Shown here piece after piece: positions 1 to 39,578 of a DNA stretch of 39,578 nt. Within the stretch, counting starts at the first letter, position 1; each line of letters starts with the position of its first letter. The notes below the pieces were generated by a model, which saw nothing but the letters and a program-made list of their open reading frames with translations, did no database searches and had not been told where the DNA came from. The position numbers were made by a program, and so were the translations under genes. This DNA comes from Elusimicrobia bacterium CG1_02_37_114 (GTDB lineage Bacteria > Elusimicrobiota > Endomicrobiia > CG1-02-37-114), in assembly GCA_001871125.1 (NCBI GenBank), contig MNXB01000064.1:1-39578 (forward strand), read 5' to 3'.

Positions 1-1513
1 GGTTATCGCCCAGATAGTCAAGGAACATCAAAAAAATAATAAAGCAAAACTCATTGTCTGTGACCCGCGGTATGTCGGACTTGCAAAATATGCCGATGTT
101 TTTATTCAGCATACGCCGGGGACAGATGTTGCTTTGCTCAATGGAATTATGAATGTTATACTGACCGAAGGTCTTGAAAACAGGGATTTTATAGAACAGC
201 ATACTGAAGGATTTGAAGAAGCAAAAAAGGTGATTTTGAAATATGACTTAGAAACTGTAAGTAAGATTACGAATGTAGATAAAGATATAATAAGACAGGC
301 AGGACAAATCATAGGTAACGCAAAATCCGTGATGATTTTCTTTACGATGGGTATAACCCAGCATACAACAGGCGTTGATAATGTTCTGTCAGTTGCTAAC
401 CTTAATATGTTGACGGGGAATGTGGGGAGACCGGGTGCAGGTGTTATGCCTTTGCGTGGGCAGGCGAATGTCCAGGGTGCCTGTGATATGGGAGTTCTTC
501 CCAATGTGTTTACAGGATACCGGAAGGTTAATGACCCCGCAGTGAGAGAAAAATTTGAGAATGACTGGGGCGCAAAACTTCCGGATAAACCGGGAAGTCC
601 CGTGACAGAATTTGCAGAAAAATCATTAAAAGGAGAAATGAAAGCAGTGTATGCTATGGGCGAAAACCCTTTAATGACAGAAGCAGATATTTCTCATGTA
701 AAAGAGGGTTTTGAAAAACTTGAGTTTCTTGCTGTCCAGGATATATTCCTTTCTGAGACAGCAAAACTTGCTGATGTGGTTTTTCCTGCAGCTGCTACGT
801 ATGAAAAAGACGGGACTTTTACGAATACAGACAGGACTGTTCAACTCTTAAGACCAGCGAGAATCAAACCTGAAGGGACAAAGTTTGACTGGGAAATTGT
901 CCGTGAAGTTTCTAAGGCAATGGGTTATGAGATGAAGTACAAGTCCAGTGCTGAGATTATGGAAGAAATAGCAGAAGGGACGCCATCATATTGCGGAATC
1001 AGGCATAAAAGGTTAGAAAAAAATGGTTTACAATGGCCCTGCACGGATGAAAATCACCAGGGGACAGAAATCTTGCATAAAGGCGGGATTTTTAAAACAT
1101 CTTCAGGTAAGGGAATATTCTCTGCTGTGGAATACAAACAGGCACAGGAACTCCCTGACGAAGAATATCCTTTTATTTTGACAACAGGAAGAATTCTTTT
1201 CCATTATCATTCTGGCAATGAAACCAGAAGAGTGAAAGTATTGGATGCTTTTGTGCCTAAAAATTATGTTGAGATTAATCCGGAAGATGCTAAAAAAATG
1301 GGTATTAAAGATAATAATCTTGTCAGGGTATCCACCAGGAGAGGAAGTATTGAATTGAATGCCCGTATATCAGAACAGCCCAAAGAGGGAGTGATTTTTA
1401 TTCCTTTCCATTTCCGGGAAGCGTCTGCGAATGTTTTGACGAATCCTGCGTTGGACCCGAAGTCAAAAATACCGGAGTTTAAAGTTTGTTCAGCAAAAAT
1501 AGAGAAAGTATAA
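1..1513 (+). CDS. fdhA: Formate dehydrogenase alpha subunit, molybdopterin oxidoreductase (5' end cut by window)
   Basis: The frame is open from base 2 and lacks only upstream sequence, so this is the C-terminal part of a molybdopterin-family oxidoreductase that interconverts formate and CO2. Visible family motifs are TPGTDVALLNGIMN, GVDNVLSVANLNMLTGN, GRPGAGVMPLRGQANVQGA and GENPLMTEAD, then the C-terminal molybdopterin-dinucleotide binding domain with TTGRILFHYHSGNETRR and IPFHFREASANVLTNPALDP. These match the FdhF/FdhA type rather than nitrate or DMSO reductases. The 4Fe-4S motif and the Sec/Cys metal ligand lie upstream of the window and cannot be judged. The nearby tungstate transporter and MGD genes suggest a W- or Mo-bis-MGD enzyme; which metal is used is inferred only. 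The track's internal ATG at 134 is not the real start. Confidence 0.93.
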   Translation, partial: VIAQIVKEHQKNNKAKLIVCDPRYVGLAKYADVFIQHTPGTDVALLNGIMNVILTEGLENRDFIEQHTEGFEEAKKVILKYDLETVSKITNVDKDIIRQAGQIIGNAKSVMIFFTMGITQHTTGVDNVLSVANLNMLTGNVGRPGAGVMPLRGQANVQGACDMGVLPNVFTGYRKVNDPAVREKFENDWGAKLPDKPGSPVTEFAEKSLKGEMKAVYAMGENPLMTEADISHVKEGFEKLEFLAVQDIFLSETAKLADVVFPAAATYEKDGTFTNTDRTVQLLRPARIKPEGTKFDWEIVREVSKAMGYEMKYKSSAEIMEEIAEGTPSYCGIRHKRLEKNGLQWPCTDENHQGTEILHKGGIFKTSSGKGIFSAVEYKQAQELPDEEYPFILTTGRILFHYHSGNETRRVKVLDAFVPKNYVEINPEDAKKMGIKDNNLVRVSTRRGSIELNARISEQPKEGVIFIPFHFREASANVLTNPALDPKSKIPEFKVCSAKIEKV

Positions 1514-8814: not shown

Positions 8815-9891
8815 ATGAATATCAGGACTCAAAATCTTAACAGTAACATAAATAACCTTCAAATACTCAAGAACATAAATGCGTCTTTTAATAACGAGGG
8901 CATAAACGTTTTAATCGGTCCTAACGGTGCGGGTAAGACGTCACTTTTAAGGCAGGTTACCCTCCTGGATAGACCCACATCCGGAGAAATATTTTATGAA
9001 GACAGACCAGTATCAAGGATGTCGTCCGATGAAAAAACTCTTTTTCGGAGAAAAATAGGTTTCGTGTTTCAAACACCCCTGATGCTGTCCGGGACAGTAT
9101 TTGATAATATTACTTACGGGTTAAAAATCAGGGGTATTGTAATTAATAAAAATAAAGTTGAAGAAACACTTCTTAAAATAGGTTTATCTGATAAATCTTA
9201 TCACAATGCAAAAGAACTTTCCGGCGGAGAGAAACAGAGATTATCCATTGCAAGGGTGTTGATAATTGAGCCGGAAGTATTTATTTTTGATGAGCCGACA
9301 GTAAATCTTGACCCTTTGAGCGTAAAAACCATAGAAGACATTATTTCCGGACTTGCGGGTTTGAGGAAAACAATAATTCTTTCAACACATAATTTAAGGC
9401 AGGCAATAAAATATGGCAGTAAAATATCTTTCATGAAAGACGGAGAAATTCTACAGGAGGGTGATTTTAAAGAAATATTTAACCGCCCTGCAATGCTTGA
9501 TGTTGCAGAATATTTATACTCAAAGAACATAATTTATGGAAATATTTTGAAAGAAGATGGGCAAACATATCTTATAAGAGACGATTTAAAAATAGTTGTC
9601 GTGGCGGGTAATATCAGCGGTGAAGTTGCCGGAATTCTGTCCCCTGAAGATATTTTTGTCTCAAAGACACGTTTGGACTCCAGTGCAAGGAATTGTTTCA
9701 GGGGGACCATTAAAAATATAGAATGGCTTGGTAGCGTGTATATCTTAACGGTTTGTGTCAATAAGGTATGTTTTGAAACAGTGATAACCAAACAATCTTT
9801 GATTTCTATGAATTTAAAAATAGGTGATGAAATATTTATAACATTCAAGGCAACATCAGTTCATATATTAAAAAGTCCATTATATCCTTGA
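8815..9891 (+). CDS. tupC: Tungstate ABC transporter ATPase, TupC-type with C-terminal TOBE domain
   Basis: The N-terminal 225 or so residues are an ABC ATPase: Walker [11 protein letters not shown]-loop VFQTP, signature LSGGEKQRLSIARVL, Walker B VFIFDEPT and the switch His in LSTHNL. The last 100 or so residues form a TOBE-like domain (GEVAGILSPEDIFVS through IFITFKATSVHIL). In related importers this domain can bind the oxyanion and slow transport; whether it does so here is unknown. The 3' end overlaps the convergent dus gene by 47 bases. Confidence 0.92.
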   Translation: MNIRTQNLNSNINNLQILKNINASFNNEGINVLIGPNGAGKTSLLRQVTLLDRPTSGEIFYEDRPVSRMSSDEKTLFRRKIGFVFQTPLMLSGTVFDNITYGLKIRGIVINKNKVEETLLKIGLSDKSYHNAKELSGGEKQRLSIARVLIIEPEVFIFDEPTVNLDPLSVKTIEDIISGLAGLRKTIILSTHNLRQAIKYGSKISFMKDGEILQEGDFKEIFNRPAMLDVAEYLYSKNIIYGNILKEDGQTYLIRDDLKIVVVAGNISGEVAGILSPEDIFVSKTRLDSSARNCFRGTIKNIEWLGSVYILTVCVNKVCFETVITKQSLISMNLKIGDEIFITFKATSVHILKSPLYP

Positions 9892-10819
9892 CTGTAGTTA
9901 ATTTGGTAAGTTCGGTGCGTATATGTTTTGCTCCAGGAAAATTGGAGAAATACCGGCAAAAAAGTTTCCTCATTCTGTAGATACCGATGCGTTCATCGTG
10001 AAGTTCTACTGACATTTTCAAATGGTCAATACTGACATTTTTAATTTCCTCCATAGTCGGGGGAGGAAGGACTGTCCCCTTTTCTAAGTAATGTTTTATT
10101 TCGCTGAATATCCAGGGATTTCCCAAAGCCCCCCGTGCAACAAGAATTCCGTCACATCCTGTTTCATCAAACATTTTTTTAGCTGACGGGCCCGAGAAGA
10201 TATCTCCACTTGCTATTACAGGTATTTTAACTGCTTTCTTAACCGCACTTATGGTTTCGTAAGACACCTGCCCGTTATATTTTTGTTCTGCAGTTCTACC
10301 GTGGATGAATATTGCCTTTGCTCCGGAACCCTCGGCTATTTTTGATACTTCTAATGCATTTATGGATTTATTTGCCGTATAGGAGCCGGTTCTGATTTTT
10401 ACAGAGACAGGTATTCTCAAACCATTTGCAAGTTTTTTGATTATTAAACCAAAAACATGAGTATCCTTCAATAAATAAGCCCCGCACTTTCTTTTCAATA
10501 CTTTTTTCACAGGACAGGCAGAATTTATATCAATTAAATCAATTCCCTTCTCCTGTAATACCAGAGCAGTTTCTAACAGGGCTTCAGGGTCATTGCCCAG
10601 TAATTGTGCTCCCAGTGGTTTGTCGGTATCGTTAGTTTTCATCTGAATCTCAAATGTCCTTTTGTTCTTGCGAAGTATAGAGTTATAGTCAAACATTTCA
10701 TAGAATGCAAAAGGACAACCGAACCTGCGGGAAATAGTTCTAAATGCCAGATCGCTTATACCTGACAGGGACGATAAAATTACTGGCGGGTCTATTTTTA
10801 ATTTGCCTATTTCTAACAT
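9845..10819 (-). CDS. dus: tRNA-dihydrouridine synthase
   Basis: A flavoenzyme that reduces specific uridines in tRNA to dihydrouridine. The FMN-binding N-terminus (PPVILSSLSGISDLAFR) is present, as are the active-site Cys 102 in DINSACPVKKV, KIRTGS, FIHGRTAEQKYNG, IASGDIF and LVARGALGNPWIF. Most homologues read MGCP where this has SACP, a mild substitution that leaves the catalytic Cys intact. At 324 residues it is of DusB size. It runs opposite to the tup operon with a 47-base tail overlap. There is no Shine-Dalgarno, and a promoter sits only about 12 bases before the ATG. Confidence 0.92.
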   Translation of the reverse strand: MLEIGKLKIDPPVILSSLSGISDLAFRTISRRFGCPFAFYEMFDYNSILRKNKRTFEIQMKTNDTDKPLGAQLLGNDPEALLETALVLQEKGIDLIDINSACPVKKVLKRKCGAYLLKDTHVFGLIIKKLANGLRIPVSVKIRTGSYTANKSINALEVSKIAEGSGAKAIFIHGRTAEQKYNGQVSYETISAVKKAVKIPVIASGDIFSGPSAKKMFDETGCDGILVARGALGNPWIFSEIKHYLEKGTVLPPPTMEEIKNVSIDHLKMSVELHDERIGIYRMRKLFCRYFSNFPGAKHIRTELTKLTTVKDIMDFLIYELMLP

Positions 10820-12113: not shown

Positions 12114-12605
12114 TTAAAAAATCTTTATAATACCGACTGTTGTAAGAGTTACAACAATACCTGCAATAATTACTCCAAGTGCAATTGCAGGGAATGCATA
12201 CCGTAATCTCATCCCCAAAAGATAAGATGCAACACAGCCTGACCAGGCCCCTGTCATTGGCAGAGGGATAGCAACAAAAAGTATTAGACCGAGCGTCCCG
12301 TATTCTTCTATTATTTTACTTCTTTTTTTTGTTCTTGTAAACCACCAGTCAAAAAATTTTCCCAATATACTTATCTTTGAAAGTTCTTTTGACAGATAAT
12401 TGAGAAATAAAAGAAGAGGTATGACAGGAACCAGATTTCCAATTACTGCAATAATAAATGTTTTTTGAATTGAAAAACCAAATTTTGCAATACCAAGCGG
12501 TATAGCACCACGCAATTCAGAAACAGGTAGTGCACCGAGCAGGAATACCATAAGCTCTGGTGATTTTCCCAGTAGAGATTCTAAAAATTTTATTATGTTT
12601 TCCAT
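12114..12605 (-). CDS. COG2426 (small multidrug export) family membrane protein
   Basis: A 163-residue protein with about four hydrophobic segments and the family blocks ELMVFLLGALPVSELRGAIP, IGNLVPVIPLLLFLNYL and YGTLGLILFVAIPLPMTGAW. This is the Sm_multidrug_ex/COG2426 family. The name comes from one early report and the real substrate is unknown. The gene starts 13 bases inside the end of pcm, so it is translationally coupled to it, and it ends 3 bases before tRNA-Pro. Confidence 0.87.
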   Translation of the reverse strand: MENIIKFLESLLGKSPELMVFLLGALPVSELRGAIPLGIAKFGFSIQKTFIIAVIGNLVPVIPLLLFLNYLSKELSKISILGKFFDWWFTRTKKRSKIIEEYGTLGLILFVAIPLPMTGAWSGCVASYLLGMRLRYAFPAIALGVIIAGIVVTLTTVGIIKIF

Positions 12606-13255
12606 CCATATTCACCTATTAGTGGTACAAACATACAACCACAGATTTCTCTTTTAGTGAGATTATCATTAATTTTTTCAATAACTGTGAGTATCTGATT
12701 TAACCTGTTGCCAATAGGTATGACCATTTTACCCAGGTTGCTTAACTGGTCTAACAATGGTTTAGGTACTTCGTTGCTGCCTGCAGTGATAAGTATCCTG
12801 GAATAGGGACCGAATTCCTTCCAGCCAGTCGTTCCATCCCCGATTTTGTATTTGATGTTTTTGTATCCTAATGAAGACAACAGTTTTTCTGCTTTTTCAG
12901 ACAGGTTTTTATTTCGTTCAATGGTATAGACTTCACCTGACAATTCTGAAAGTATAGCGGTCTGGTATCCGGAACCTGTGCCAATTTCAAGTGTCCTATC
13001 TTTAATTGTGAGCTGGAGCAATTCTGTCATAAGTGCGACCATGTAAGGTTGCGATATTGTCTGTCCCTCACCTGTTGGCAATGGATAGTCATTATATGCT
13101 TCTGATAAGAATTTTTCAGGAACAAACAGATGTCTTGGAACTTTTAGCATTACTTCAATGACGTTTTTCTCATTGATACCCTTCTGGACAATCTGTGTTT
13201 CAACCATTTCCTGCCTTTCAGAATCAAAATTTATATTGTCTTTACCACGTTTCAT
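12593..13255 (-). CDS. pcm: Protein-L-isoaspartate O-methyltransferase
   Basis: The enzyme methylates isoaspartyl residues in damaged proteins so they can return to aspartate. Family blocks are VPRHLFVPEKFLSEAYNDYP, LPTGEGQTISQPYMVALM and the SAM-binding LEIGTGSGYQTAILSEL, with GKMVIPIG near the C-terminus. Length (220 aa) is typical. It is divergent from the hldE promoter region. A TTGACT-N17-TAGGAT element sits 8 bases before the ATG, which would leave almost no leader, but the same AGGA could also serve as a Shine-Dalgarno, so the two readings compete. Confidence 0.94.
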   Translation of the reverse strand: MKRGKDNINFDSERQEMVETQIVQKGINEKNVIEVMLKVPRHLFVPEKFLSEAYNDYPLPTGEGQTISQPYMVALMTELLQLTIKDRTLEIGTGSGYQTAILSELSGEVYTIERNKNLSEKAEKLLSSLGYKNIKYKIGDGTTGWKEFGPYSRILITAGSNEVPKPLLDQLSNLGKMVIPIGNRLNQILTVIEKINDNLTKREICGCMFVPLIGEYGWKT

Positions 13256-18372: not shown

Positions 18373-18416
18373 ACTATAATGTCCCGCCTGACGACGGGCA
18401 GGCAAGACCTGACCCC
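18371..18416 (+). repeat. 46-bp dispersed repeat, copy 1
   Basis: The block runs from AAACTATA through GTCCCGCCTGACGACGGGCA to GACCCC and matches 33106-33151 at 44 of 46 positions by eye. It contains the alternative stems CCCG/CGGG and GCCTG/CAGGC. It starts at the kdsA stop codon and ends at the ATG of the next gene. Confidence 0.85.
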
Positions 18417-19226
18417 ATGGAAAAGATTGATTATGGTTTAAAATTTCTAAGAGATGTATTAAAGGTGGAATCTCTGCATTTTGGCTACTGGGATAACGGT
18501 GTGCCGACCACACTGGCTAACCTCAGATTAGCGCAGGTTAAATATATTGACCACTTAATCAAATTTATTCCTGAAGGTGTCAGTTCTATACTTGATGTAG
18601 GTTGCGGTACAGGTGTAGTGGCAGATAGACTTGTAAATAAAGGTTATAAAGTTTTATGTATATCCCCGGATGTTTACCAGGAGAAAATATTCAAAGAAAG
18701 GTTAAACATACCTTTTCGTTTGACGAAATTTGAAGATTTTGATACTGATTCAAAATATGACCTTATTCTTATGTGTGAGAGTATGCAATATCTTGATTTG
18801 GATAAAACATTTGCAAAATGCCGGGAAATACTGAATCCAAAAGGATACATACTAACATCTGATTATTTCAGGAAAGTTAATACTAACTACTATAAAACCT
18901 GTTATGTTGAAGAAACCTTTCTTAAGAAATCAGAGCAATATGGTTTTCATGTTATAAAGCATGAAGACATTACTGAAAATGTAGTGCCTACACTGGAATT
19001 TGCAAAAAACATATACAAAGATTATGCTCTGCCGGTAGCAGAAATCTTTAGTGGATATATAAACCAGGAATATCCGGGAGTAGCAAAAGTTGGTGGTTTT
19101 TTATTGGGGAATAAATTGAAAAAACTTCACAAATATATCTATACACATACAGAAGAAAAACTTGATACAAAAAAATTTGCTCAGTTTGTAAAATACGGTA
19201 TTTACCTATTGGGGGACGCTACTTGA
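18417..19226 (+). CDS. Class I SAM-dependent methyltransferase, substrate unknown
   Basis: A 269-residue Rossmann-fold methyltransferase: the SAM motif ILDVGCGTGVVADRL is near residue 58, the acidic loop partner follows, and LILMCESMQYLDLDKTF with LNPKGYILTSDYF forms the later strands. The N-terminus (ESLHFGYWDNG) resembles small-molecule or lipid methyltransferases, but the substrate cannot be called. The gene is bracketed by repeats: the 46-bp repeat ends at its ATG, and the last codons (GDAT, stop) lie in another repeat (19211-19240). Both sides carry CAAGRYCTGACCCCATG. It interrupts the kdsA-kdsD order and looks like an inserted cassette. Confidence 0.8.
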   Translation: MEKIDYGLKFLRDVLKVESLHFGYWDNGVPTTLANLRLAQVKYIDHLIKFIPEGVSSILDVGCGTGVVADRLVNKGYKVLCISPDVYQEKIFKERLNIPFRLTKFEDFDTDSKYDLILMCESMQYLDLDKTFAKCREILNPKGYILTSDYFRKVNTNYYKTCYVEETFLKKSEQYGFHVIKHEDITENVVPTLEFAKNIYKDYALPVAEIFSGYINQEYPGVAKVGGFLLGNKLKKLHKYIYTHTEEKLDTKKFAQFVKYGIYLLGDAT

Positions 19227-19240
19227 AAATTGCTACTTTA
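19211..19240 (+). repeat. Dispersed 30-bp repeat, copy 1, containing the methyltransferase stop codon
   Basis: GGGGGACGCTACTTGAAA and the following ATTGCTACTTTA match 38329-38358 almost exactly. The TGA in ACTTGA ends the methyltransferase reading frame, so the repeat set the C-terminus. Confidence 0.8.
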
Positions 19241-19291
19241 GTTTGCTTAATTTCACATTTCAAGGTCTGACCCCATGTCTGGAGGAGACAC

Positions 19292-19942
19292 ATGAAACTT
19301 TTTATTGACAGCGCTGATGTTGACGAAATAAGGACAGTTTTTTCCTGGGGGTTACTTGATGGAGTAACGACCAACCCGACACTGATTGCCAAGCAGAATA
19401 AAAACCCTGAAGAATTGTTAAAACAAATAAGTAAAGTTGCTGACTTGCCCGTCCTTGCTGAACCCGTCAGTACAGACTATGAGGGGATAATAAAAGAGTC
19501 CAATAAACTCACCCGAATTTCAAAAAATATTGTTGCCAAAATTGCTATGACCATGGAGGGTGTCCGGGCGGTAAGTACACTTTCAAAGAAAGGAATAAAG
19601 ACCGCTTTAACTCTGATATTTTCGCCGGCCCAGGCAATCCTTGCAGCAAAAGCAGGTGCTGACTGGATATGCCCTTTTGTAGGCAGATTGGATGATGCCG
19701 GCGAAAGAGGTCTGGACTTGGTAAAGAACATTGTTCAGATATACAAAATTCATAATTATAAAACCAAAGTCCTTGTTGTCTCGGTAAGAAATTCAGATCA
19801 TATATCTTTTTCTGCACTTTATGGAGCAGATGCAGTTTCTGTCCCTTTTAAAGTCATTCAGCAAATGTCCCAACATTCATTGACAGATGCCGGGATTAAA
19901 AAATTTCTTGAAGATTGGTCAAAATCAGGAGAAACAAAATGA
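19292..19942 (+). CDS. Transaldolase/fructose-6-phosphate aldolase family protein
   Basis: A 216-residue short transaldolase (FSA/TalC type): MKLFIDSADVDEI, GLLDGVTTNPTLIAK, the Schiff-base lysine K83 in NIVAKIAMT, TLIFSPAQAILAAKAGADWI and PFVGRLDD are present. Sequence alone does not separate transaldolase (pentose phosphate carbon shuffling) from fructose-6-phosphate aldolase. Most close relatives have VKIPMT where this reads AKIAMT. GGAGGAG precedes the ATG. The stop overlaps the next gene as ATGA, which links it to the zinc-ribbon and kdsD genes; it may help supply pentose phosphate to KdsD. Confidence 0.9.
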   Translation: MKLFIDSADVDEIRTVFSWGLLDGVTTNPTLIAKQNKNPEELLKQISKVADLPVLAEPVSTDYEGIIKESNKLTRISKNIVAKIAMTMEGVRAVSTLSKKGIKTALTLIFSPAQAILAAKAGADWICPFVGRLDDAGERGLDLVKNIVQIYKIHNYKTKVLVVSVRNSDHISFSALYGADAVSVPFKVIQQMSQHSLTDAGIKKFLEDWSKSGETK

Positions 19943-37426: not shown

Positions 37427-38278
37427 TCATTTTTCAACCCAACTGACGATATACTCTGTTCTTGGTAATAAATTTATTACAGAAGGTGTTTCTGTTATCC
37501 AGTCACCCTTGAGTCCGATATGTTTTGCAGTGAGTTCAAAATGGCACATAGCTATTCCCATATCAATACGTTGAAGGTCAACACTGACTAATTTGTTGTA
37601 GCCGGTAGTTCTCTGAAGATAAAAATGAAGTTTGTTGTTTTGCTTAACGATACGCCAGGGTTGTCTGTTAGAGGCAGAAGGAGCTAATCTCAACATTGAT
37701 AAAGGCTGATAATAAGTTTCATCGCCGGCTTCATTCAGCGGATTGTTAAACGACTCTTTGAAAAATAATTCGTTCCATAGTTTTCTTTTATCAGATCCTG
37801 CCATTTTGCGAATAGCAGAATCCGTTAAGCTGGATTTTTGTGCAGGATAACCTATTGGAGTTATTGCGGGCAGGATTTCGTTTGGTTGTAGATTTATTTT
37901 TTTACTAAAACTTGCTCTGTTGAATGTTCCTCCGAGCCAGCAGGTCCCAATCTCAAATTGTGTTGCAAACAAAATTATTTTTTCTAAGCCATATCCAAAA
38001 TCTTCCCAGCATTTTGCTGAATCCGAAACCACTGCCCCTGTAATAAAGGTTTTTGCTCCTTTAATGATTCTGTATGTTCCCAATTTTTTTGATTCTTCGT
38101 CAGGCAGATTTGATATATCAATGAGTTGGAATCTTACCTTACTTCCGAATGGGACGGTTATATTGGCAAGTGAATCTGTTATTTTTTCCAGTATCTCTTT
38201 TTCAATGGGTTTGGGTTCAAAAGTCCTGCAGGATTTTCGCTGTTTTATGATTTCAGTAATTAACTTAAAAAGTTCCAT
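37427..38278 (-). CDS. Nitroreductase-like protein (TM1586-type duplicated fold)
   Basis: A 283-residue protein with two nitroreductase half-domains. The first begins ITEIIKQRKSCRTFEPKPI and contains FGYGLEKIILFATQFEIGTCW followed by LGGTF. The second has LSMLRLAPSASNRQPWRIV and VDLQRIDMGIAMCHFELTA. This fits the putative TM1586-type nitroreductase family, which binds flavin; the natural substrate is unknown. No Shine-Dalgarno precedes ATG 38278, and a strong promoter ends 7 bases before it, so the mRNA should be leaderless. It is divergent from lpxI. Confidence 0.88.
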   Translation of the reverse strand: MELFKLITEIIKQRKSCRTFEPKPIEKEILEKITDSLANITVPFGSKVRFQLIDISNLPDEESKKLGTYRIIKGAKTFITGAVVSDSAKCWEDFGYGLEKIILFATQFEIGTCWLGGTFNRASFSKKINLQPNEILPAITPIGYPAQKSSLTDSAIRKMAGSDKRKLWNELFFKESFNNPLNEAGDETYYQPLSMLRLAPSASNRQPWRIVKQNNKLHFYLQRTTGYNKLVSVDLQRIDMGIAMCHFELTAKHIGLKGDWITETPSVINLLPRTEYIVSWVEK

Positions 38279-38285
38279 TGGTAAA

Positions 38286-38315
38286 ATTATATAAATTTAT
38301 ATCTATAATAGTCAA
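38286..38315 (-). promoter_or_regulatory. Promoter of the nitroreductase gene, leaderless
   Basis: On the minus strand TTGACT (38310-38315), 18 bases and perfect TATAAT (38286-38291) are followed by TTTACCA and the ATG. The predicted start is at or one base before the A of ATG. Confidence 0.7.
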
Positions 38316-38328
38316 GGTAGCGAGGGTA

Positions 38329-38358
38329 GGGGGACGCTACTTGAAATTTGCTACTTTT
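38329..38358 (+). repeat. Dispersed 30-bp repeat, copy 2
   Basis: GGGGGACGCTACTTGAAATT and the following TGCTACTTTTA match 19211-19240. Here it lies between the divergent nitroreductase and lpxI promoters, next to a minus-strand copy of the AGAACCGTCCCCAT repeat. Confidence 0.8.
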
Positions 38359-38365
38359 AAGAATT

Positions 38366-38379
38366 AGAACCGTCCCCAT
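38366..38379 (-). repeat. Dispersed repeat copy, ATGGGGACGGTTCT on the minus strand
   Basis: AGAACCGTCCCCAT on the plus strand is the reverse complement of the copy at 2634-2647. It ends 8 bases before the lpxI -35 box. Confidence 0.5.
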
Positions 38380-38387
38380 ACTTTCCT

Positions 38388-38416
38388 TTGACAATCTGTA
38401 TGAAATTTTATATACT
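38388..38416 (+). promoter_or_regulatory. Promoter of lpxI, leaderless
   Basis: Perfect TTGACA (38388-38393), 17 bases and TATACT (38411-38416) predict transcription starting near 38423, which is the A of the lpxI ATG. No Shine-Dalgarno is present between them. Confidence 0.75.
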
Positions 38417-38422
38417 TTCAAT

Positions 38423-39235
38423 ATGATTTTAGAAGAAAAAATCGGATTGATTGCCGGTAAAGGTATGCTTCCTGTATTATCTGCGCAGGGGGCAAAAAAA
38501 CTTGGTAAAAAAGTTTATGCTGTCGGGCTAAACAGCGATGTGGAAAATGAAATAAAAAAATATGTATATAAACTTAAGTTTATAAGTACAGGCAGATTGG
38601 GGTCAATAATAGAATTCTTTAAGAGAAATGATATAACTAAAGTAATAATGGTTGGACTGATAAAACATAAACTTATTTTTGATAATATTGAAATGGATGA
38701 CCGTACAAAGAGAATGTTTGACTGTATGAAAGATAAAAAAGCCGATTCAATACTGGGTGCTGTCTGCAAGGAATTGCAAAAGGACAATCTTGAATTAATA
38801 CCGGTCACAGAGGTACTGGACGATTCCCTTGTGCCAAGGGGTATGCTGACAGGAAAACGTCATATCAGCAGACAGGAGAACGAAGATATAATGTTCGGAT
38901 TTGATATTGCAAAAAGGGTTGGGGGACTTGATATTGGACAGACCATAGTGGTTAAAGATAAATCAATTGTTGCCATTGAAGCAATGGAAGGCACGGATAT
39001 GTGTATTTTGCGGGCAGGTGAGATTTCAGGCGGAGGATTTGTGGTTGTTAAAGTGGCGAAGCCACAGCAGGACTGGCGGTTTGATTTGCCTGTAATAGGT
39101 ATGAAGACAATAAAAACAATAAAAAAAGCAAAGGGCAAGATACTGGCGGTTGAATCAGGAAAAACATTGATTCTTGAAAAAGAAAAAACCATTAAATTAG
39201 CAGATAAAGAAGGAGTTATTGTCGTAGGGATATAA
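38423..39235 (+). CDS. lpxI: UDP-2,3-diacylglucosamine pyrophosphatase LpxI
   Basis: LpxI hydrolyses UDP-2,3-diacylglucosamine to lipid X, replacing LpxH in many diderms. The DUF1009 sequence is clear: KIGLIAGKGMLPVLSAQGAK, IMVGLIKH, DSILGAVCKELQ, VLDDSLVPRGMLTGKR, GQTIVVKDKSIVAIEAMEGT and DLPVIGMKTIK. I start at ATG 38423 (MILEEKIGLIAGKG, 270 aa); the track's upstream 25 residues run through a repeat and the promoter. It supplies lipid A synthesis for the envelope genes in the middle of the window, though it stands apart from them. Confidence 0.95.
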   Translation: MILEEKIGLIAGKGMLPVLSAQGAKKLGKKVYAVGLNSDVENEIKKYVYKLKFISTGRLGSIIEFFKRNDITKVIMVGLIKHKLIFDNIEMDDRTKRMFDCMKDKKADSILGAVCKELQKDNLELIPVTEVLDDSLVPRGMLTGKRHISRQENEDIMFGFDIAKRVGGLDIGQTIVVKDKSIVAIEAMEGTDMCILRAGEISGGGFVVVKVAKPQQDWRFDLPVIGMKTIKTIKKAKGKILAVESGKTLILEKEKTIKLADKEGVIVVGI

Positions 39236-39367: not shown

Positions 39368-39578
39368 ATGTCCATGAAAATTAATAAACAATTATCTTTC
39401 GCTATGTATGAAGCTAACATTAAATTTGCTAATGACCCTATGAAATTACTTTTTGATAAAATTGATCTTGCTTTTATCTATCCTTTAGTTGAACCTCACT
39501 ACAAAAAAGGTGGCAGAGATTCTTTTGATCCTATTTCCATTTTTAAAGCTCTTTTATTCATTTATATGGATACGAAAA
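39368..39578 (+). mobile_element. Insertion sequence transposase, N-terminal part (cut by window end)
   Basis: The frame from ATG 39368 runs open to the window edge (70 codons). The sequence DPISIFKALLFIYM preceded by KGGRD is the DUF772-type N-terminal domain of DDE transposases of the IS4/IS5/IS1182 kind. GGAGG lies about ten bases before the ATG. The left terminal repeat should lie between 39290 and 39350 but could not be identified without the other end. Family assignment within the DDE group is open. Confidence 0.75.

Follow-up and report, generated by a model that had tools for sequence, protein, structure and literature searches.

The 144-bp gap between lpxI and a divergently oriented nitroreductase gene was analysed on contig MNXB01000064.1 of Elusimicrobia bacterium CG1_02_37_114 (39,578 nt, referred to as the window). 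Two back-to-back sigma70-type promoters were found in this gap, each with its −10 box placed almost directly before a start codon that lacks a Shine-Dalgarno (SD) sequence. We conclude, with a probability of roughly 0.78, that both genes are transcribed as leaderless mRNAs. The relevant features are as follows.

37427–38278, minus strand: TM1586-type nitroreductase, 283 aa (Pfam TM1586_NiRdase, E 5.4e-39), predicted leader 0–1 nt
38286–38291, minus strand: −10 box TATAAT of the nitroreductase gene (score 8.7, spacer 18)
38310–38315, minus strand: −35 box TTGACT of the nitroreductase gene (direct reading, pattern match)
38330–38377, no strand: REP-like inverted repeat GGGGACG...CGTCCCC, 48 bp, between the two −35 boxes and in neither promoter
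38388–38393, plus strand: −35 box TTGACA of lpxI (direct reading, pattern search)
38411–38416, plus strand: −10 box TATACT of lpxI (score 9.5, spacer 17)
38423–39235, plus strand: lpxI, UDP-2,3-diacylglucosamine pyrophosphatase, 270 aa (Pfam LpxI_N, E 2.7e-33; LpxI_C, E 6.9e-47), predicted leaderless

The promoters were read directly from the sequence and scored with a sigma70 two-box score. For lpxI, TTGACA is followed by a 17-nt spacer, TATACT, TTCAAT and the ATG at 38423. For the nitroreductase gene, TTGACT (38315–38310) is followed by an 18-nt spacer, TATAAT (38291–38286), TTTACCA (38285–38279) and the ATG at 38278; a pattern search returned the same promoter as a 40-nt match at 38276–38315. 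Both −35 boxes are thus at normal spacing, and the distances from −10 box to ATG, 6 nt for lpxI and 7 nt for the nitroreductase gene, lie within the range of about 5–10 nt used for TA-led (leaderless) genes. The SD scan of called starts gave a match length of 0 upstream of either gene. The initial annotation of this DNA had described the same boxes and spacings and the lack of an SD sequence, and sequence, scores and SD scan agree with it. Across the genome, the density of sites with a score of 8.6 or more is 0.047 per kb of strand, which corresponds to a chance of about 3e-4 that such a site is found 5–10 nt before a given start; here there are two, facing away from each other.

The start codons of lpxI and the nitroreductase gene, both ATG, are sound and are fixed by the domain matches. 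The alignment to LpxI_N starts at residue 6 of the protein and position 1 of the profile, and that to the nitroreductase domain at residue 7 and position 2. The named database hits to LpxI, among them an Elusimicrobia MAG, are 38–40% identical to it. Residues 7–17 of LpxI form the motif IGLIAGKGMLP, and the next ATG falls inside this motif; the nitroreductase frame could extend upstream of its ATG by no more than about 6 codons. Transcription usually begins 6–9 nt downstream of the −10 box, so the predicted start is on the A of the lpxI ATG and 0–1 nt before the ATG of the nitroreductase gene. RNA polymerase would then begin no more than 1 nt from either start codon, and ribosomes would presumably begin at the 5'-terminal AUG without SD pairing, an established mode of initiation on the leaderless mRNAs of other bacteria.

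The proposal that such starts recur was assessed on 1.80 Mb (86%) of the 2.09-Mb, 130-contig assembly, of which the window is one contig. A dicodon model called 1714 genes; starts were chosen from coding score, start codon and SD sequence, and no promoter signal was used. The genes were split into 587 that are first in their transcription unit and 749 that are operon-internal, and the two-box score was computed at each distance upstream of the starts. The 16S gene ends in CACCTCCTTT, and an SD sequence of at least 4 nt was present in about half of the first and of the internal genes, compared with 13% of random ATGs. Promoters scoring at least 6 at 5–10 nt were found before 40 of the 280 SD-less first genes and before only 2 of the 307 first genes with an SD sequence (Fisher p = 8.5e-12); in operon-internal genes there were 6 in 749. 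At a score of at least 7, 31 were observed at this distance, against a mean of 0.21 and a maximum of 2 in shuffled sequence. The SD-less first genes showed a sharp peak at 6, 7 and 8 nt, with distances spread over 5–11 nt, whereas in first genes with an SD sequence promoters were near-absent at 0–19 nt and rose at 20–60 nt. No 6–8 nt peak was seen in internal genes or in a reversed-motif control (count of 1); both were flat. Hexamer counts that ignored the −35 box and relied on poor start calls gave almost no peak; it emerged with two-box scoring and stood out once starts were better called and genes were divided by SD. E. coli K-12, analysed as a negative control, gave no peak, with 1 of its 169 first genes positive at score 6, but few sites exceeded the cut-off there and the power was low.

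The scan for −10 boxes before SD-less starts that the initial annotation had proposed thus yields a separate peak, and its suggestion that leaderless starts may be common holds in so far as the class exists; since an SD sequence precedes about half of the genes, it is a clear minority. A leaderless-type promoter was detected directly in 40 of the 587 first genes (7%). The detection is incomplete: in first genes with an SD sequence a promoter at 20–60 nt was found in 73 of 307 (∼24%), and scaling by this sensitivity gives a rough upper estimate of about 30%. Leaderless starts therefore appear as a distinct minority class of first genes, seen directly at 7% and perhaps reaching 30%. The genome would have two designs of first gene, one with an SD sequence and a promoter 20–60 nt upstream, the other without an SD sequence and with its −10 box placed right before the start codon. 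The candidates are ordinary genes, among them argG, gmk, queH, a ddl-like ligase, a lipB/birA-like ligase and a BrnT-family gene, and several (argG, gmk, queH) have domains that begin at residues 4–8, at the called start. ATG is the start codon in 51 of 55 candidates and TTG in none, which is weak evidence as the caller favours ATG.

The same data bear on whether the transcripts are strictly leaderless. The promoters could be real while the transcripts start a few nt further upstream and carry short leaders of 2–8 nt, as dus, with a leader of about 5 nt, appears to do, and the genome-wide distances of 5–11 nt leave room for this. The mode at 6–8 nt nevertheless fits a start on or beside the AUG, and first genes with an SD sequence are almost empty at 5–19 nt; we regard near-leaderless transcripts of lpxI and the nitroreductase gene as unlikely.

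Still less probable is that the boxes are chance AT-rich matches, with the real promoters elsewhere and leadered transcripts translated without an SD sequence. The genome has a GC content of 37%, and a clear SD sequence is missing from about half of its genes, as this explanation would have it, but both sites are near-consensus in boxes and spacer, and the exact pattern TTGACA-16..19-TATAMT, that of lpxI, has a single match in the window where shuffled sequence would yield 0.07. A two-box scan of the 144-bp gap found no competing stronger promoter, the next best score being 5.0, and the 6–8 nt peak across the genome is specific to SD-less first genes.

Leaderless mRNAs as the product of both promoters are further supported by recurrence of the layout in relatives, which were examined through loci that match a pattern. 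In four relatives of the same order, the strict pattern TTGAC-18..20-TATAAT-6..8-ATG coincided with the beginning of an open reading frame of at least 100 aa at 17 of 20 plus-strand loci, as compared to 18% of all ATGs, and at 8 of the 9 remaining loci. From their N-terminal sequences we take the genes at pattern loci to include coaD, valS (two genomes), a PHP-domain protein (two genomes), an RnfC-like protein (two genomes), lexA and a KsgA-like methylase. Two families of the order share the layout at coaD, which has it in the relative G002 (L186) and, 6 nt from the ATG, in the window's genome (L055). A blunt test by plain pattern counts in 60 genomes of the class, which compares 5–8 nt with 13–16 or 12–15 nt, gave 59 versus 34 in the order and 275 versus 185 in the other class genomes, a modest excess that is suggestive only. 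With a stricter pattern the hand-summed counts were 31 versus 17 in the order and 92 versus 79 elsewhere outside one genus (g5). The leaderless interpretation given earlier for both genes thus gains support from a peak confined to SD-less first genes and from its recurrence in sister genomes, the transcript starts themselves being predicted.

Other observations weigh against this interpretation. Starts led by an SD sequence dominate the genome. The plain counts in g5 showed no excess (103 versus 101), and a loose pattern in the window's own genome gave 23 versus 20. The PHP and lexA-like orthologues in the window's genome have other arrangements, and several own orthologues without the layout indicate that it turns over. 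For the nitroreductase, no close orthologue was present within the order for comparison; the lpxI orthologues of relatives are operon-internal, and conservation support for the layout is seen at coaD and at neither of these two genes.

Bacterial leaderless genes are a well-known class, of which the present case is a new occurrence. Zheng et al. 2011 (PMC3160421) reported TA-led genes in 207 of the 953 bacterial genomes surveyed, where they made up a minority of the genes in most groups; the −10-near-start layout is the same here, and the fraction of first genes (7%, up to ∼30%) is within the reported range. The main text of that paper names neither Elusimicrobia nor another lineage linked to the window's genome. 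In Deinococcus-Thermus a −10 box directly before the open reading frame drives leaderless mRNA in about a third of D. radiodurans genes, with the motif TANNNT and the −35 box as an optional enhancer (PMC12340547), whereas the candidates described here were found by a TTGACA-type −35 box together with TATAAT and are a minority. The passage of PMC9581028 that cites Lomsadze 2018 gives leaderless transcription, as predicted by GeneMarkS-2, in 21.6% of bacterial species and up to 40% of transcripts; as presented there, such genomes mix SD-led and leaderless genes as here, where our own gene caller was used for the classification instead. For Elusimicrobiota, PMC10783764 holds only an anti-SD table, and a search of the paper library used here returned no report of leaderless genes for a lineage linked to the window's genome. 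The results add a little-studied lineage with a clear leaderless class beside its SD-led genes, and they bear on gene-start calling and promoter reading in this lineage.

The neighbourhood of lpxI suggests how it may have come to this layout. In every readable neighbourhood of the relatives except L015, lpxI directly follows or overlaps lpxA, has no promoter and usually has no SD sequence; in L015, one genome of the class, no upstream open reading frame is close to lpxI. The gene order in L007 is fabZ-lpxA-lpxI-oxidoreductase-lpxB. In the window's genome lpxI stands alone: lpxA and what looks like an lpxC-fabZ fusion gene lie beside groEL/groES, with lpxA followed by a convergent groEL, and the oxidoreductase gene and lpxB are on another contig. 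The two pieces of the split lpx operon are:

L110:3070-5129
L144:290-2411

The most economical account is a break-up of the fabZ-lpxA-lpxI-oxidoreductase-lpxB operon in this lineage, upon which lpxI would have entered the SD-less class by gaining a promoter against a start that already lacked an SD sequence, a history drawn from one case. For an SD-less operon-internal gene such as lpxI behind lpxA, a −35/−10 pair before the ATG may suffice for free-standing expression, and lpxI would illustrate concretely how one gene lost its operon and acquired a leaderless promoter. That this is the usual route to independent expression for genes leaving operons in this order is a speculation we consider doubtful; if true, operon break-up feeds the leaderless class.

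The two −35 boxes are 72 bp apart, and the inverted repeat sits inside this interval. Its core, AGAACCGTCCCC, has 38 copies in the 1.80 Mb, and near copies of the 48-bp element were found at L105. The genome has eight matches to Y1 (RAYT-like) transposases, a family tied to REP repeats; a search of Rfam found no family in the region. The position of GGGGACG...CGTCCCC between the −35 boxes would suit an operator of a co-regulated divergent pair, but the repeat is a member of a dispersed REP-like family and repeats of this kind show no significant excess among leaderless genes (5 of 40 versus 34 of 547, p = 0.17), so this explanation, the least probable of all, was rejected and the repeat is treated as an insertion.

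Two further genes in the window had been assigned a similar layout.

9845–10819, minus strand: dus, tRNA-dihydrouridine synthase (Pfam Dus, E 5.8e-70; promoter score 7.7 at 12 nt)
12593–13255, minus strand: pcm, protein-L-isoaspartate methyltransferase (Pfam PCMT, E 7.5e-62; score 7.2 at 8 nt)

For dus, TATAAT ends 12 nt before the ATG and no SD sequence was found, in line with the leader of about 5 nt proposed in the initial annotation. For pcm, which it included more guardedly, a box ends 8 nt before the ATG (TTGACT-17-TAGGAT-8-ATG), but this −10 box is weaker and contains AGGA, and pcm is only plausible.

Some additional observations concern other loci. About 22 genes or fragments for AAA_14/DUF4143 ATPases are present in the genome, five of which have leaderless-type promoters:

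L035:50052-51218
L142:4793-5941
L144:6088-7197
L166:7957-9297
L081:168-1346

Such promoters also precede AAA_14/DUF4143 genes in the relatives L206, L209 and L214; enrichment of the family among leaderless genes was not significant (3 of 14 versus 39 of 573, p = 0.07). The neighbouring called genes L094:6295-6933 and L094:6884-7333 share an identical 44-nt upstream promoter sequence, an apparent tandem duplication. At 18380–19300 of the window, short CTGACCCC/GGTCTGACCCC repeats lie just before gene starts and are possibly another type of dispersed repeat. Just behind lpxI, a reading frame at 39369–39578, which by eye resembles an insertion sequence (IS) transposase, runs off the end of the window and contig.
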